Part shown: positions 1 to 5,253 of the stretch, in pieces
Layout of the letters: every line of letters begins with the position of its first letter
Position numbering within the stretch: position 1 is the first letter of the stretch
Assembly (NCBI RefSeq): GCF_006715865.1
Contig: NZ_VFOA01000001.1
Location: 3,286,001 to 3,350,000 of the forward strand
From: Cellulomonas sp. SLBN-39
GTDB lineage: Bacteria > Actinomycetota > Actinomycetes > Actinomycetales > Cellulomonadaceae
Length of the DNA: 64,000 bases
Reading direction: 5' to 3'
Program-made: the position numbers and the translations under genes
Notes under the pieces: model-generated
What the model was told of the DNA's origin: nothing
What the model saw: only the letters and a program-made list of their open reading frames with translations
Database searches by the model: none

Positions 1-887
1 GTGCACTCGGGGTGCACGAGGACGTTCACGCCCGGGACCCGCTCGCGCACCTGCTCGACGTTGCGGGCCGAGAACCGCCCGTGCACGGAGCAGTGCCCGC
101 GCCAGAGGATCATCCGCGCGTCCCGCAGCTGCTGGGTCGTCAGCCCGCCGCCGGGCCGCCGGGGGTCGTACACGACGCAGTCGTCCAGGCTCAGCCCCAG
201 GCCGAGGACGGCGGTGTTGCGGCCCAGGTGCTGGTCGGGCATGAAGAGCACCTTGCCGCGGCCGCCCACGCCCCCGACCCGGTCGAAGGCCCAGCGCAGC
301 GCCACGTGCGCGTTGGAGGAGGTGCACACGGTCCCGCCGTGCCGACCCGTGAAGGCCTTGATCGCCGCGGTCGAGTTCATGTACGTCACCGGCACGGTGT
401 CGTCGGCGACGCCCGCGTCCACCAGCACGTCCCAGGCGTCCTCGACCTGGTCGATCGCCGCCATGTCCGCCATCGAGCAGCCCGCGGCCAGGTCCGGCAG
501 CACGACCTGCTGGGAGTCGGAGGTGAGGATGTCCGCGGACTCCGCCATGAAGTGCACGCCGCAGAACACGACGTGCTCGGCGTCGGGTCGCGCGGCCGCC
601 TCGCGGGCGAGCTTGAAGGAGTCGCCCGTGACGTCGGCGAACGCGATGACCTCGTCGCGCTGGTAGTGGTGCCCGAGCACGAACGCCCGGTCGCCGAGGG
701 CCGCCCGCGCCACGCGTGCCCGTTCGACCAGGTCGGGGTCGGACGCGGCCGGCAGGTCGCCGACGCACTCGACGCCCCGCTCGGAGGCCAGGTCGACGCC
801 CCGCCCGAGCAGCAGCAGCGCCGACGGCGCGGGCTCGGCGAAGCCGGCGGGGGAGACGGGGCCGGGTGCGGACGTGGAGACGCTCAC
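1..887 (-). CDS. nadA: Quinolinate synthase NadA (3' end cut by window)
   Basis: Makes quinolinate from iminoaspartate and dihydroxyacetone phosphate in de novo NAD synthesis, using a [4Fe-4S] cluster in the cytosol. The 295 residues present contain the family signatures GHHYQRDEV, FCGVHFMAESADIL (first cluster cysteine), YMNSTAAIKAF and CTSSNA, and end in the window at HPEC, which carries the second cluster cysteine. The third cysteine and the C-terminus lie beyond position 1. The GTG start at 887 gives an unconserved Pro/Ala-rich leader before the core. No good Shine-Dalgarno precedes it; a GAGGAT element 7 nt upstream hints at a leaderless start. It diverges from the glycerate kinase gene across 73 nt. 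nadB and nadC are not in the window. Confidence 0.95.
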   Translation of the reverse strand, partial: MSVSTSAPGPVSPAGFAEPAPSALLLLGRGVDLASERGVECVGDLPAASDPDLVERARVARAALGDRAFVLGHHYQRDEVIAFADVTGDSFKLAREAAARPDAEHVVFCGVHFMAESADILTSDSQQVVLPDLAAGCSMADMAAIDQVEDAWDVLVDAGVADDTVPVTYMNSTAAIKAFTGRHGGTVCTSSNAHVALRWAFDRVGGVGGRGKVLFMPDQHLGRNTAVLGLGLSLDDCVVYDPRRPGGGLTTQQLRDARMILWRGHCSVHGRFSARNVEQVRERVPGVNVLVHPEC

Positions 888-960
888 GGGGAAGATCCTC
901 GCACAGCGCCGCACGTCGGCCCCGTGACGTCGGCCGCCCGCGCCGTGCCACGATCGGGGC

Positions 961-2169
961 GTGCGCGTCCTCCTCGCCCCCGACTCCTTCGGCGACCGGC
1001 TCACCGCCGCGCGGGCGGCCGACGCCCTGCGCACCGGCTGGCTCGAGGGCGCGCCCCACGACACGGTCACCACCTGCCCCCTCGCCGACGGCGGGCCCGG
1101 CTTCGTCGCCACCCTGCACGCGTCGCTCGGCGGCGACCTGGTCCCCGCGACCGTGACGGACCCGCTCGGCCGGCCCACACCGGCCGTGGTGCTGCGCGCC
1201 GGGACCGGTGCGTGGGTGGAGTCCGCGCAGGCCGCCGGCCTGGCGCTCGTGCCCGCCGACCGCCGCGACCCCACCCGGACCACGACCACGGGCGTCGGCG
1301 AGCTCGTGGCCGCCTCCGTGGCGGCCGGCGCCACCCGGGTCGTCGTCGGGCTCGGCGGGTCCGCGACCAACGACGCCGGCGCCGGCATGCTCCTGACGCT
1401 GGGGCGTGCCCTGGTCCCCGGGCAGGTCCCGGCCGGTGCGGCGGTGCTCGCCCACGGCGGGCTCGCGCTCGCGGACGTCCCGGCGCAGGACCTCGCGTGG
1501 CTGGGCCCGCTGCGCGCCGCCCTGCGCCACCTGGACCTGGTCGCCGCGGTGGACGTCGACGTGCCGCTGCTGGGGCTGCACGGCGCCTCCGCAGGCTTCT
1601 CGGAGCAGAAGGGCGCCTCGCCGCAGCAGGCGCAGGACCTCGAACGGGCGCTGGGCGCGTTCGCGCACGCGGCCGCCGCCGCCGCGGGCGCCGACGTGCG
1701 GCCCGACCTGCTGGGCGGCTCGTCGGACCAGCCGCGGGGACGCTCGGCCGCCGCGCGGCTCGCGGGGCTTCCCGGCGCCGGCGCCGCCGGCGGGCTCGGC
1801 TTCGCGCTCGCGCTCGTGGGCGCGCGCCTGCTGCCCGGCGCCGCCCTGGTGGCCGACGCCGTCGGCCTCGACGGGCAGGTGGCCGACCACGACCTCGTCG
1901 TCACGGGTGAGGGGCGCACCGACTGGCAGTCGCTGCACGGCAAGGTCGTCGCCGAGGTCGCGGCGCGCGCCCTGCCGCAGGCGGTGCCGACGGTGGTCGT
2001 CTCGGGCGAGGTCACCGTCGGCCGGCGCGAGCTGGCCGCCGCCGGGGTCGCGGCCGCGTACGCCGTGGCCGAGGGCCCCGAGGCCGTCGCCGCCGCCCTG
2101 GCGGACCCCGCCGCCACGCTCGCCGCCCGCGCCGCACGCGTCGCCCGGACGTGGTCGCCCGCGCCGTGA
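961..2169 (+). CDS. Glycerate kinase (GK1/GlxK family)
   Basis: Phosphorylates D-glycerate with ATP in the cytosol; the family mostly yields 2-phosphoglycerate. The 402 residues match the family length (about 380). Seen: N-terminal LLAPDSFGDRLTAARAADAL, the CPLADGGPGF loop, the glycine-rich VVGLGGSATNDAGAGML around residue 130, and VVTGEGRTDWQSLHGK near residue 315, typical of the C-terminal catalytic part. The GTG start at 961 is the first codon before the conserved strand; CACGAT lies 6 nt upstream, resembling a weak leaderless promoter. The next gene is erpA on the same strand after 111 nt. In M. tuberculosis a related gene (Rv2205c) also neighbours the HesB gene, so linkage looks ancestral rather than functional. 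Substrate specificity is inferred from family only. Confidence 0.88.
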   Translation: MRVLLAPDSFGDRLTAARAADALRTGWLEGAPHDTVTTCPLADGGPGFVATLHASLGGDLVPATVTDPLGRPTPAVVLRAGTGAWVESAQAAGLALVPADRRDPTRTTTTGVGELVAASVAAGATRVVVGLGGSATNDAGAGMLLTLGRALVPGQVPAGAAVLAHGGLALADVPAQDLAWLGPLRAALRHLDLVAAVDVDVPLLGLHGASAGFSEQKGASPQQAQDLERALGAFAHAAAAAAGADVRPDLLGGSSDQPRGRSAAARLAGLPGAGAAGGLGFALALVGARLLPGAALVADAVGLDGQVADHDLVVTGEGRTDWQSLHGKVVAEVAARALPQAVPTVVVSGEVTVGRRELAAAGVAAAYAVAEGPEAVAAALADPAATLAARAARVARTWSPAP

Positions 2170-2280: not shown

Positions 2281-2628
2281 ATGAGCGAGACCACCACCAC
2301 GACGCACGGCGTCCAGCTGACCGACGTGGCTGCCGACAAGGTGCGCAGCCTGCTCGAGCAGGAGGGCCGTGACGACCTGCGCCTGCGCGTGGCCGTGCAG
2401 CCCGGCGGGTGCTCCGGCCTGATCTACCAGCTGTACTTCGACGAGCGTCTGCTCGACGGCGACGCGACCCGTGACTACGACGGTGTCGAGGTCGTCGTGG
2501 ACCGCATGAGCGTGCCGTACCTCGAGGGCGCGACGATCGACTTCGCCGACACGATCGAGAAGCAGGGCTTCACGATCGACAACCCGAACGCGGGCTCGGC
2601 CTGCGCGTGCGGCGGCTCCTTCAGCTGA
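2281..2628 (+). CDS. erpA: Iron-sulfur cluster insertion protein ErpA (HesB/IscA type)
   Basis: A-type carrier that passes Fe-S clusters to apo-proteins. At 115 residues it is full length. The three ligand cysteines are present: one in QPGGCSGL (about residue 41) and two in the C-terminal SACACGGSF. The ATG at 2281 follows GGGAGTGAC, an acceptable ribosome-binding site, and the leader SETTTTTHGVQLT fits the family N-terminus. A perfect 16-bp hairpin (2653-2687) ends the transcript. Nearby NadA is an Fe-S enzyme, and the tusA/desulfurase-like pair faces it from the other strand, so this corner is rich in sulfur and Fe-S genes. It corresponds by position to Rv2204c of M. tuberculosis. Confidence 0.93.
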   Translation: MSETTTTTHGVQLTDVAADKVRSLLEQEGRDDLRLRVAVQPGGCSGLIYQLYFDERLLDGDATRDYDGVEVVVDRMSVPYLEGATIDFADTIEKQGFTIDNPNAGSACACGGSFS

Positions 2629-2740: not shown

Positions 2741-3013
2741 TCAGGGGGAGGCCGGTGCCGCGAGCCGGACGTCGACCTCCCACGCACCGCCCCCGGGGCC
2801 GGGCTCGCGCACGTCCAGCAGCGCGTGACCGCGCATGCGAGCCCAGGCGGGCAGGTCGAGGGCGGCCGCCGGGTCGGTGGCCAGCACGGTGAGGACCGTC
2901 CCGCCCGGCCGGTCGCGGGCTGCGGCGGCAGCGCGCACGACGGGCAGCGGGCAGCGCAGGCCGCGTGCGTCGACGACCACGGGAGGGTCGTCGTCCGCCC
3001 CGCCGGGGGTCAC
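2741..3013 (-). CDS. tusA: TusA-family sulfur carrier protein
   Basis: Small cytosolic sulfur-transfer protein of 90 residues, the usual TusA size. It has the hallmark VVVDARGLRCPLPVVRAA, with the persulfide-carrying cysteine at residue 21 in a CPxP motif, then a beta-alpha-beta-beta pattern with TVLTVLATDPAAALDLPAW. The GTG start at 3013 overlaps the TGA of the upstream desulfurase-like gene (GTGA, 3010-3013), so the two are translationally coupled. In the classical pathway IscS hands sulfur to TusA for tRNA 2-thiolation or molybdopterin; here the coupled partner lacks the PLP lysine, so the sulfur source is uncertain. No tusBCDE genes are nearby. Confidence 0.85.
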   Translation of the reverse strand: MTPGGADDDPPVVVDARGLRCPLPVVRAAAAARDRPGGTVLTVLATDPAAALDLPAWARMRGHALLDVREPGPGGGAWEVDVRLAAPASP

Positions 3014-4167
3014 AGGCCCTGCGCCCCGAGCGTCGACCGCACGTCCGCGACGGCACGGGGCAGGACGTCGAGGAACCGGTCCACGTCGTCGGCGCGCACG
3101 TCGACGGGCAGCGAGAGCCGGACGTTGCCGTGCGTGAGGACGCCCATCGCCGCCAGCACGTGGCTGGGCTCGAGCGCGCTCGACGTGCACGCCGAGCCGG
3201 ACCCCACGCCGAGCCCCTCCTGGTCGAGGCGTGTCACGAGCGCCTCGCCGTCGACGAACAGGCACGAGAACGTCACGACGTGGGGGAGCCGGTCGACGGC
3301 GTCACCGACGACCTCGGCGTCGGGCACGTGTGCCGCGACGTGGTCGCGCACGCGCGCGACCAGGGCCCGGCGGTGCGCGTCGGCGGCGGCCCGCCCCGCC
3401 TCGGCCTCCTGCAGCGCGACGGCCGCGGCCAGCGCGAGCGGGACCCACGTGCCGCCCGGGAACCACCGGTCCTCGTCCTCCGGGCCGTCGGGGGAGCGGC
3501 GCACGCCGGCGCGGGTGACGAGGACGCCGACGCCGGCGGGCCCGCCCCAGTCGCCGGCGTCCGCGGCGACCAGGTCCCCGCAGGGCCCCACGGCGACGTG
3601 CCCGACGCTCGCGCCCGCGTCGACGAGCAGCGGCACGCCCGCGGCGCGGGCCGCGTCGTGCGCGGCCTCGACGGGCTGGAGGGTGCCGACCTCGCCGTTG
3701 GCGTGCTGCAGCGCGGCGAGCGCGACGGGGCCGTGCAGCGCGGCGGCGAAGGCGTCGAGGTCGACCCGCCCGGCGCCGTCGACCCCGACGGTGCGCACGT
3801 GCCCGCCGTGCGTGGAGGTCGCGTGGGCGGCGGCGGCGTGCACGGCCGCGCGCTCGACCGCGCTCACCACGACGTCCGTGCCGACGCGGCGCCGCCCCCG
3901 GGCGACGGTGCGCACGGCGGAGTGCAGCGCGGCCGTGTGCGAGGGGGCCAGGTCGACCTCCGACGTCCGGACGCCCAGCACCCCGGCGACGGCCTCGCGG
4001 GCGCCGTCGAGCAGCATGCGGGCGCGACGCGCCTCGGCGAACAGCCGGCGGGGATCGGCCCAGCCCTGGTCGACGGCCTCGAGCAGCGCCTGCCGGGCAC
4101 CGGGGCGCAGGGGAGCGTGCCCGGCCACGTCGAGGACGGTGCGCGGGGGAGGGGGTGCGTCGCTCAC
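3010..4167 (-). CDS. Cysteine desulfurase-like protein (class V aminotransferase fold) lacking the PLP lysine
   Basis: The 385 residues align along their length with IscS/NifS. The mobile active-site loop is intact (SGSACTSS with Cys327, then LEPSHVL), as are the PLP-ring Asp (VDAG, Asp183) and a substrate Arg (NVRLSL, Arg350). However the segment equal to SAHKFGGPKG reads DAGDWGGPAG, so the Schiff-base lysine is Asp206 and its neighbouring His is Gly205. The PLP-stacking His is Arg106 (ERAAV), the O3'-binding Gln is Ala186, and the N-terminal DNAATTP and GNPSS-H motifs are also altered. Either it works without PLP or it is a sulfur-handling or regulatory pseudoenzyme. The GTG start follows a leaderless-type promoter; the gene is coupled to tusA. 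Family assignment is firm, activity is not. Confidence 0.8.
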   Translation of the reverse strand: MSDAPPPPRTVLDVAGHAPLRPGARQALLEAVDQGWADPRRLFAEARRARMLLDGAREAVAGVLGVRTSEVDLAPSHTAALHSAVRTVARGRRRVGTDVVVSAVERAAVHAAAAHATSTHGGHVRTVGVDGAGRVDLDAFAAALHGPVALAALQHANGEVGTLQPVEAAHDAARAAGVPLLVDAGASVGHVAVGPCGDLVAADAGDWGGPAGVGVLVTRAGVRRSPDGPEDEDRWFPGGTWVPLALAAAVALQEAEAGRAAADAHRRALVARVRDHVAAHVPDAEVVGDAVDRLPHVVTFSCLFVDGEALVTRLDQEGLGVGSGSACTSSALEPSHVLAAMGVLTHGNVRLSLPVDVRADDVDRFLDVLPRAVADVRSTLGAQGL

Positions 4168-4380: not shown

Positions 4381-5253
4381 GTGCACCCGGATTCCCCCCG
4401 CCGCACACGCCGAGCCGTGGCCGCCGCCGTGCTGGTCACGGTCGCCGCGCTCGTGCTCAGCGGCTGCTCCGACGTGGTCCAGCGTGGCTGGCTCCCCGGC
4501 TACTCCGACCAGGAGGTCACCGACCAGACCGGTCGCGTCGTCTCCCTGTGGGTCGGCTCCTGGATCGCCGCCCTCGCGGTCGGCGCGATCACGTGGGGGC
4601 TGATCCTGTGGTGCGTCGCGGTCTACCGCAAGCGCAAGGACGACGACACGCTCCCCGTCCAGCTGCGCTACCACGTGCCGCTCGAGGTGATGTACGTGAT
4701 CCTGCCGATCGTCATGGTCGGCGTGCTCTTCTACTACACGAACCGCGACACGATGGCGATCACGGACACGTCCGCCGAGCCCGACGTGAACATCCAGGTC
4801 ATCGGCAAGCAGTGGAGCTGGGACTTCAACTACCTCGACGAGGACGTCTACGAGACCGGCCAGCACGCGCAGGACATCGGCTCCGACGAGTCGGTCCTGG
4901 GCGAGCAGGTCACGCTGTACCTGCCCGTCGGCGAGCGGGTGGAGTTCACGGTCGACTCGCGCGACGTCATCCACTCCTTCTGGGTGCCGGCCTTCCTGTT
5001 CAAGATGGACATGATCCCCGGGCACACCAACACCTTCCAGGTCACGCCCACGCGTGAGGGCAGCTACGTCGGCAAGTGCGCCGAGCTCTGCGGCGAGGAG
5101 CACTCGGCGATGCTGTTCAACGTCGAGGTCGTCTCCCGCGAGGAGTACGACGCCCACATGCAGGAGCTGCGGGACCAGGGCCAGACGGGTGCCCTCGGCC
5201 TGGAGTACAGCCGTCAGCAGGACCTGAACGACGTCGCGGAGGTCGAGGACTGA
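4381..5253 (+). CDS. ctaC: Cytochrome c oxidase subunit II (CtaC, aa3 type)
   Basis: Carries the CuA centre that receives electrons from the bcc complex and passes them to subunit I. The 290 residues start with a lipoprotein signal (lipobox LSGC, Cys29) and have two membrane segments (about 53-77 and 92-115). The periplasmic cupredoxin domain contains the [10 protein letters not shown] aromatic patch, DVIHSFWVP, and the CuA cluster [12 protein letters not shown] (Cys233, Cys237, His241, Met244). The GTG at 4381 is chosen because it begins the positively charged n-region; GAGAGTGGAAGG lies upstream. Its TGA shares one base with the ctaD ATG at 5253, so the subunits are co-translated. Confidence 0.95.

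Follow-up and report, generated by a model that had tools for sequence, protein, structure and literature searches.

The window, i.e. the whole analysed stretch of 64,000 nucleotides of Cellulomonas sp. SLBN-39 (contig NZ_VFOA01000001.1), contains a gene for a NifS-like protein without the PLP lysine, and a tusA gene that overlaps it. Below, this protein is called NifSx, and family members without the Schiff-base lysine are called K-less. The genes and the codons discussed are the following.

1..888, minus strand: NadA (quinolinate synthase; Pfam, NCBIfam), cut by the window edge
961..2169, plus strand: presumably a glycerate-kinase-like gene
2281..2628, plus strand: ErpA-type iron-sulfur insertion protein, the convergent neighbour (NCBIfam NF010147, over the cut-off)
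2741..3013, minus strand: TusA, 90 aa, RCPLP motif (PF01206, E 5.9e-18), overlapping the NifSx stop by 4 nt
2951..2953, minus strand: codon of the TusA acceptor Cys (Cys21, aligned with E. coli Cys19)
4167..3010, minus strand: NifSx (385 aa, GTG start), the NifS-like protein
3118..3120, minus strand: codon 350 (Arg), constant in 166/166 de-replicated family members
3187..3189, minus strand: codon 327, TGC, for the Cys of SGSACTSS that carries the sulfur, constant in 166/166 de-replicated family members
3550..3552, minus strand: codon 206, GAC (Asp), aligned with the Schiff-base Lys of E. coli IscS
3553..3561, minus strand: codons 203-205 (Asp-Ala-Gly), at the place of Ser-x-His, E. coli IscS 203-205 (alignment)
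3610..3612, minus strand: codon 186 (Ala), at the place of E. coli IscS Gln183 (alignment)
3850..3852, minus strand: codon 106 (Arg), at the place of E. coli IscS His104 (alignment)
4381..5253, plus strand: cytochrome oxidase subunit II, the divergent neighbour, which we take, from its sequence, to be ctaC-like

NifSx belongs to the aminotransferase class V sequence family (Aminotran_5, PF00266, E 4.1e-32 in Pfam), and its best NCBIfam model is NifS (TIGR03402), with 206.5 bits, far below the cut-off of 530.75. The preliminary description of the locus had named seven residues, and all of them (Arg106, Asp183, Ala186, Gly205, Asp206, Cys327 and Arg350) are correct in the translation. In the alignment with the product of the E. 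coli K-12 iscS gene, taken as the reference, Lys206, His205, His104 and Gln183 of IscS correspond to Asp206, Gly205, Arg106 and Ala186 of NifSx. The changes claimed for the cofactor pocket hold, and their extent is larger than claimed, as Ser203 is replaced by Asp203, Asn155 by Gly158 and, less surely because the stretch is gappy, Thr243 by Gly239. The equivalents of IscS Thr76 (Thr78), Asn154, Asp180 (Asp183), Cys328 (Cys327) and Arg354 (Arg350) are retained. Of what is expected in a NifS/IscS enzyme, NifSx lacks the Schiff-base lysine and the pocket His, Gln, Asn, Ser and His (Arg106, Ala186, Gly158, Asp203 and Gly205, respectively), and has the Cys of the active-site loop.

Ser203, His205, Thr243 and Thr76 of IscS hold the PLP phosphate, and Asn155 is a pocket residue; the equivalent of Arg350 holds the substrate carboxylate, Asp183 and Arg350 being PLP/substrate residues in active enzymes. 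The functions of IscS His104, Asp180, Gln183 and Lys206 are given in PMC9978102, in the passages drawn upon here. The whole NifSx protein contains no lysine, hence no other lysine is able to take over the PLP role. One could still suppose that NifSx is a desulfurase holding PLP non-covalently, given that the K206A variant of IscS retains PLP-related absorption (PMC9978102, same passages) and that the legend of a figure with 4EB5 in PMC9769115 mentions PLP. However, the equivalents of Ser203, His205, Asn155, His104 and Gln183 are also replaced in NifSx, with both Ser203 and the lysine becoming Asp, and mutations of Asp180 or Lys206 of IscS, according to those passages of PMC9978102, inhibit the reaction with cysteine, making this reading very improbable.

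Relatives were collected in a genome-contig scan (at least 68 relatives) and by searching 295 genomes of the class with a profile, where the family scored well above canonical IscS; 79 further places were chosen by hand among the matches listed in the latter search. Some NifSx match was found in 36 of 39 close genomes, with canonical IscS among the matches. The family rows (n = 211, more than 300 bits) include repeats, as some genomes are represented more than once: the window gene occurs four times (L004, L081, L139, L142), and two contig-end fragments (L067, L104) sit among the rows and are scored as lacking TusA. The matched length exceeded 330 in 208 rows, and 166 remained once rows that shared with another both over 90% identity and the site-206 letter had been dropped; these de-replicated rows comprise 26 family codes plus named families.

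At the lysine site, the 211 rows (repeats included) have K in 92 cases, D in 90, S in 18, A and T in 4 each, G in 2 and M in 1, and the 166 de-replicated rows have K in 83, D in 55, S in 17, A and T in 4 each, G in 2 and M in 1. A sequencing error is excluded, since the lysine is absent from 83 of the 166 de-replicated members and from the closest relative found (L082, 96% identical).

Cys327 and Arg350 are invariant in both the Lys-bearing (83/83) and the K-less (83/83) sets, as well as in 209/209 of those among the 211 rows that reach them; the SGSACT loop is mostly unchanged in both sets, and Asp183 is present in 81/83 K-less members. The five sites that best separate the two sets are 206, 185, 205, 158 and 203, of which four belong to the PLP pocket and one (185) adjoins a pocket site; sites 239, 106 and 77 are within the top 22, and there are strongly divergent sites outside the pocket too (16, 233, 266 and others). 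As the strongest differences fall on pocket sites and the loop is constant, the PLP site, judging from the sequences, is mostly dismantled across the K-less members, with the sulfur-carrying loop retained. Arg106 co-occurs with Asp206 in 49 of the 55 Asp rows; the two residues possibly form a salt bridge in the place of the cofactor, or the co-occurrence may merely reflect shared descent. The matched region is lysine-free in 68/83 K-less rows; in the Lys-bearing rows it contains one to five lysines, exactly one in 27/83.

Some loci are mixed. In L056, L188 and L216 the lysine is present and His205 is already replaced, and in the f36 loci (L201-L213) and L216 the lysine is present and Gln186 is already replaced. 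Such Lys-bearing forms may be enzymes en route to the loss of PLP.

The K-less genes are under purifying selection: the Nei-Gojobori dN/dS ratio is 0.074-0.310 in 17 K-less pairs, and 0.116-0.172 in three Lys-bearing pairs. The catalytic residue is gone from one in two sampled rows and its replacements vary, which does resemble relaxed constraint at site 206, but the dN/dS ratios are low, the frames are intact, and the Cys and the Arg are constant across 83 de-replicated K-less rows, so that a decaying gene or an assembly error is hardly credible as an explanation of NifSx. We reject decay given the low dN/dS and the constancy of Cys327 and Arg350, in agreement with the initial assessment that the gene is not decaying.

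In all 65 genome-contig loci, a ctaC homologue adjoins the family gene on the opposite strand. On the TusA side, the neighbours are erpA (61/65), the kinase gene (50/65) and nadA (46/65), some contigs ending early. The block with ctaC is common to Lys-bearing (Phytoactinopolyspora, Motilibacter) and K-less genomes; in the Streptomyces locus ctaC is present, and no erpA is seen within the 4 kb examined. As the same block lies beside ctaC in 65/65 loci, K-less and Lys-bearing members are positional orthologues, and the lysine was most likely, as far as gene order and alignment can tell, lost in place within the family gene. The actinobacterial NifS-TusA unit is of common descent, the family branch being supported at 100/100, apart from canonical IscS. 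Its Lys-bearing representatives (Streptomyces and others) have the same place beside ctaC, the same TusA partner and the same Cys loop as NifSx, but differ from it in having Lys and His106 (83/83 each), His205 (79/83) and Gln186 (54/83). Other actinobacteria commonly have this unit with its lysine intact; hence the pair was inherited, and the lysine was lost out of an already existing unit.

The TusA of the window has the features of its family, i.e. the PF01206 domain and the equivalents of Cys, Pro, Pro, Asp45 and Asp51. Coupling of the two genes had been claimed from the GTGA at 3010-3013, where the NifSx stop overlaps the TusA start, and it extends well beyond the window: TusA is adjacent (same strand, at most 304 nt) or fused in 178/211 rows, repeats included. 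By the letter at the lysine site, these are 90/92 rows with Lys, 61/90 with Asp, 16/18 with Ser and 11/11 with A, T, G or M; there are 19 fusions with Lys and four with Ser. The equivalents of TusA Cys19, Asp45 and Asp51 are constant in the aligned K-less partners (62/62), and among the Lys-bearing partners (n = 81) they are present in 80 (one gap), 81 and 81 cases, respectively.

The rows without an adjacent TusA are mostly of the Cellulomonas type. In the same-genus set (25 genomes, own included), 22 genomes have the full NifSx gene, and TusA is adjacent in 11 of these. In the other 11, and only in those, a diverged TusA-like protein is encoded elsewhere (L129-L138 in G009, G018, G008, G014, G016, G024, G020, G015, G003 and G006, and G001:C109:5247-5516; E 8.1e-31 or better), with the motif GGDLGCARLL replacing CPxP, so that the Cys is kept and the following Pro is lost. 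The best match of this relocated protein in the 11 genomes with an adjacent TusA has E 1.5e-11 and falls on their own TusA domains. This all-or-none swap between adjacent and relocated forms, which further strengthens the case for coupling, is the best evidence for joint function after the loss of the lysine. As for genomes of the set lacking the full gene, no NifSx match, that of the IscS-like paralogue included, and no TusA match were found in G004; the family gene is absent from G011, which has TusA domains only within long frames; and G012 has a NifSx fragment with no TusA found.

No convincing TusA was seen within approximately 840 nt downstream of nine profile-negative loci, two of them Lys-bearing; the K-less loci without one are L032, L105, L214, L215, L217, L220 and L225. 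Five f41 loci and Flavimobilis rhizosphaerae are among those with none nearby, at the level of the locus. Short CPxP-like strings occur near L105, L215 and L225, and in G032, the genome of the K-less L105, the PF01206 search yielded only a TusA domain inside a long frame. TusA domains (CTGLACPGPIM or similar) inside frames of ~800-1400 aa were also observed at G000:C1:2851801-2852007 (L119), L120-L123, L125 and L126; these frames are possibly CoA-disulfide-reductase-like.

The trees omit the trait columns and take canonical IscS as the outgroup. Some of them use rows selected by hand, 65, 49 and 29 in number, and the largest of these selections lacks three rows that were meant to be in it. Lys is ancestral, and the best tree needs five changes; bootstrap trees need four to five, and none (0%) of 200 has a single change. 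The strongly supported branches alone force only one change, and, for the 65 rows, the AU test does not reject the single-loss topology (p-AU 0.074). With long branches dropped, a joint clade of the Micrococcales group and f41 is rejected (p 0.0235, two changes), the rows having been chosen after inspection of the tree. The name Micrococcales group is used here for the large K-less group formed by Cellulomonadaceae, Promicromonosporaceae, Sanguibacteraceae, Jonesiaceae, Intrasporangiaceae and codes f1, f5, f9 and f16 (67 rows, SH-aLRT 95; 17 sampled rows, 96/95), inside which S, T, D and A interchange at the lysine site. The remaining K-less rows have codes f41, f40, f44 and f47, several of them on long branches. 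One loss for all K-less members is disfavoured by the best trees, and two losses seem likely, five being the count of the best tree.

At the site of the second cysteine of TusA, Cys56 in E. coli, a Cys is present in 81/81 Lys-bearing partners versus 23/62 K-less ones; in 39/62 K-less partners the site is Ala or Thr, and the family-assigned ones among these all belong to the Micrococcales group. A link between the loss of the lysine and the loss of this cysteine was rejected, as two independent pairs on strongly supported branches showed no difference.

The PLP lysine is also missing from known relatives. Among solved structures, A. fulgidus IscS2 comes closest in sequence (4eb5, E 3.2e-37), and A. 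fulgidus IscS is described in the cited part of PMC7585200 as having no desulfurase activity through a Lys-to-Asp change, with its Cys serving as a ligand to the cluster in IscU. NifSx could by analogy be inactive, its loop Cys ligating a nascent cluster on a scaffold, perhaps together with ErpA, rather than relaying sulfur to TusA. Like NifSx, IscS2 (4eb5, 4hvk) is of the IscS/NifS family and has Asp in place of the Lys, Ala in place of the Gln and the loop Cys, and an ErpA homologue adjoins the family gene in the great majority of the loci counted above. In contrast to NifSx, however, IscS2 retains the equivalents of His104 and Asn155, has Leu and not Arg in the Arg350 column (an alignment-dependent assignment), and has IscU as the partner in the source's account, whereas the usual partner of the NifSx family is TusA, a sulfur carrier, also found fused. 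In the 29-row tree, IscS2 groups with E. coli IscS (100/99), outside the NifSx family; this excludes a common origin of the lysine loss, and hence the Lys-to-Asp replacement in A. fulgidus is a parallel or convergent change. Ligation of the scaffold [2Fe-2S] cluster by Cys is a feature of the A. fulgidus system, and we consider such a role rather improbable for NifSx.

Two further proteins are compared by description. M. acetivorans IscS1 resembles NifSx in that it, too, is without the PLP Lys (PMC7585200, in the part cited). M. tuberculosis Rv3778c, an actinobacterial desulfurase relative, lacks the PLP Lys and is judged likely non-catalytic, but it is termed distantly related to desulfurases, and TusA pairing is not mentioned in the portion of PMC12910592 that we cite. 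The preliminary description had held that a pseudo-desulfurase paired with TusA is not a described unit. This stands insofar as no report of a K-less desulfurase paired with TusA was found in the open-licence literature searched, mainly at the level of listings; it needs qualification insofar as the parts are known, from A. fulgidus IscS and from Rv3778c as cited. In a plasmid collection, the search by named product gave one Nonomuraea match with no annotated feature beneath. Thus, a desulfurase homologue without the PLP lysine is a known kind; what is new is its form coupled to TusA, which is widespread and perhaps arose repeatedly.

The genome of the window has 15 class-V matches, and three proteins besides NifSx were classified, all with the HK motif at the Lys site: a SufS that exceeds its cut-off and two proteins that stay below theirs, one SufS-like and the other NifS/IscS-like. 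The second SufS-like protein, G000:C1:2265556-2266674 (L002), has 280.8 bits with TIGR01979. Because the IscS-like gene directly adjoins mnmA, tRNA thiolation probably does not need NifSx.

In E. coli, where the pair likewise consists of a desulfurase-family protein and TusA, the latter binds to one subunit of IscS, which brings its Cys19 to ~4 A from the loop Cys328 of the other subunit (PMC2854127, in the cited passages). The TusA Cys19, Asp45 and Asp51 equivalents are kept in the window pair; E. coli IscS, unlike NifSx, carries PLP on Lys206 and, according to the same passages, serves several partners. Such docking of TusA requires no PLP in itself. The fact that the TusA-facing loop belongs to the other subunit, together with the presence of Lys-bearing desulfurase-like proteins in the genome, would suit a mixed dimer, in which NifSx borrows the active site of a Lys-bearing partner. 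But NifSx is only ~37-38% identical to the IscS-like paralogue, whose position next to mnmA suggests a client of its own, and we regard a mixed dimer as improbable.

Pseudoenzymes often retain the fold and the partner surface. NifSx might, accordingly with this general tendency, be a non-catalytic subunit that binds either TusA or a dimeric Lys-bearing desulfurase, of which the genome has several candidates, and controls loading while carrying no sulfur. Among the columns that contact TusA in E. coli IscS, Arg57 and mostly Asp54 are kept in both sets, consistent with docking. However, a pure dock needs no Cys327, which every K-less row has, and the docking role alone leaves the retention of Asp183 (81/83) and Arg350 (83/83) in the K-less members unexplained. 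We therefore deem such a subunit unlikely, if less so than the A. fulgidus-like role.

The explanation that we tentatively prefer is that NifSx is a PLP-free descendant of a TusA-loading desulfurase, now acting as a persulfide relay to TusA. The Lys-bearing ancestors would have been active enzymes; NifSx would bind no PLP and most likely retain the desulfurase fold, the dimer, the mobile cysteine loop and the docking of TusA. Cys327 would take sulfane sulfur from outside NifSx, becoming a persulfide, and then pass it to the TusA cysteine as the acceptor. Candidate donors are a persulfide on one of the genome's own Lys-bearing desulfurases and a small persulfide whose carboxylate Arg350 would hold; the retention of this residue suggests that the pocket still admits a small carboxylate-bearing molecule, e.g. 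cysteine persulfide. Some observations count against the relay: of the residues through which E. coli IscS contacts TusA only some are retained, Glu49 and Arg237 being mostly absent from both sets; some K-less members have no TusA nearby; and not all divergent sites are in the pocket. The broader claim, that a desulfurase was several times converted into a dedicated cofactor-free relay, so that TusA is loaded with sulfane sulfur made elsewhere, is possible but more doubtful than the relay in NifSx itself.

Cysteine desulfurases are valued as PLP-based makers of persulfide. A conserved family that dropped the PLP site, perhaps repeatedly, and kept the Cys and, mostly, TusA suggests that the carrier or docking half is useful by itself. 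If the relay is true, a step of sulfur trafficking would be built on a dead enzyme, and the stages in between (lysine present, pocket half gone, lysine gone; partner fused, adjacent or relocated) would persist in living genomes. Orthologues with and without the lysine, which occupy one and the same position among their neighbours, are natural pairs for a direct comparison, and the name cysteine desulfurase would probably mislead if attached to the gene as found in Cellulomonas, Promicromonospora, Isoptericola, Knoellia, Janibacter, Phycicoccus and their kin.
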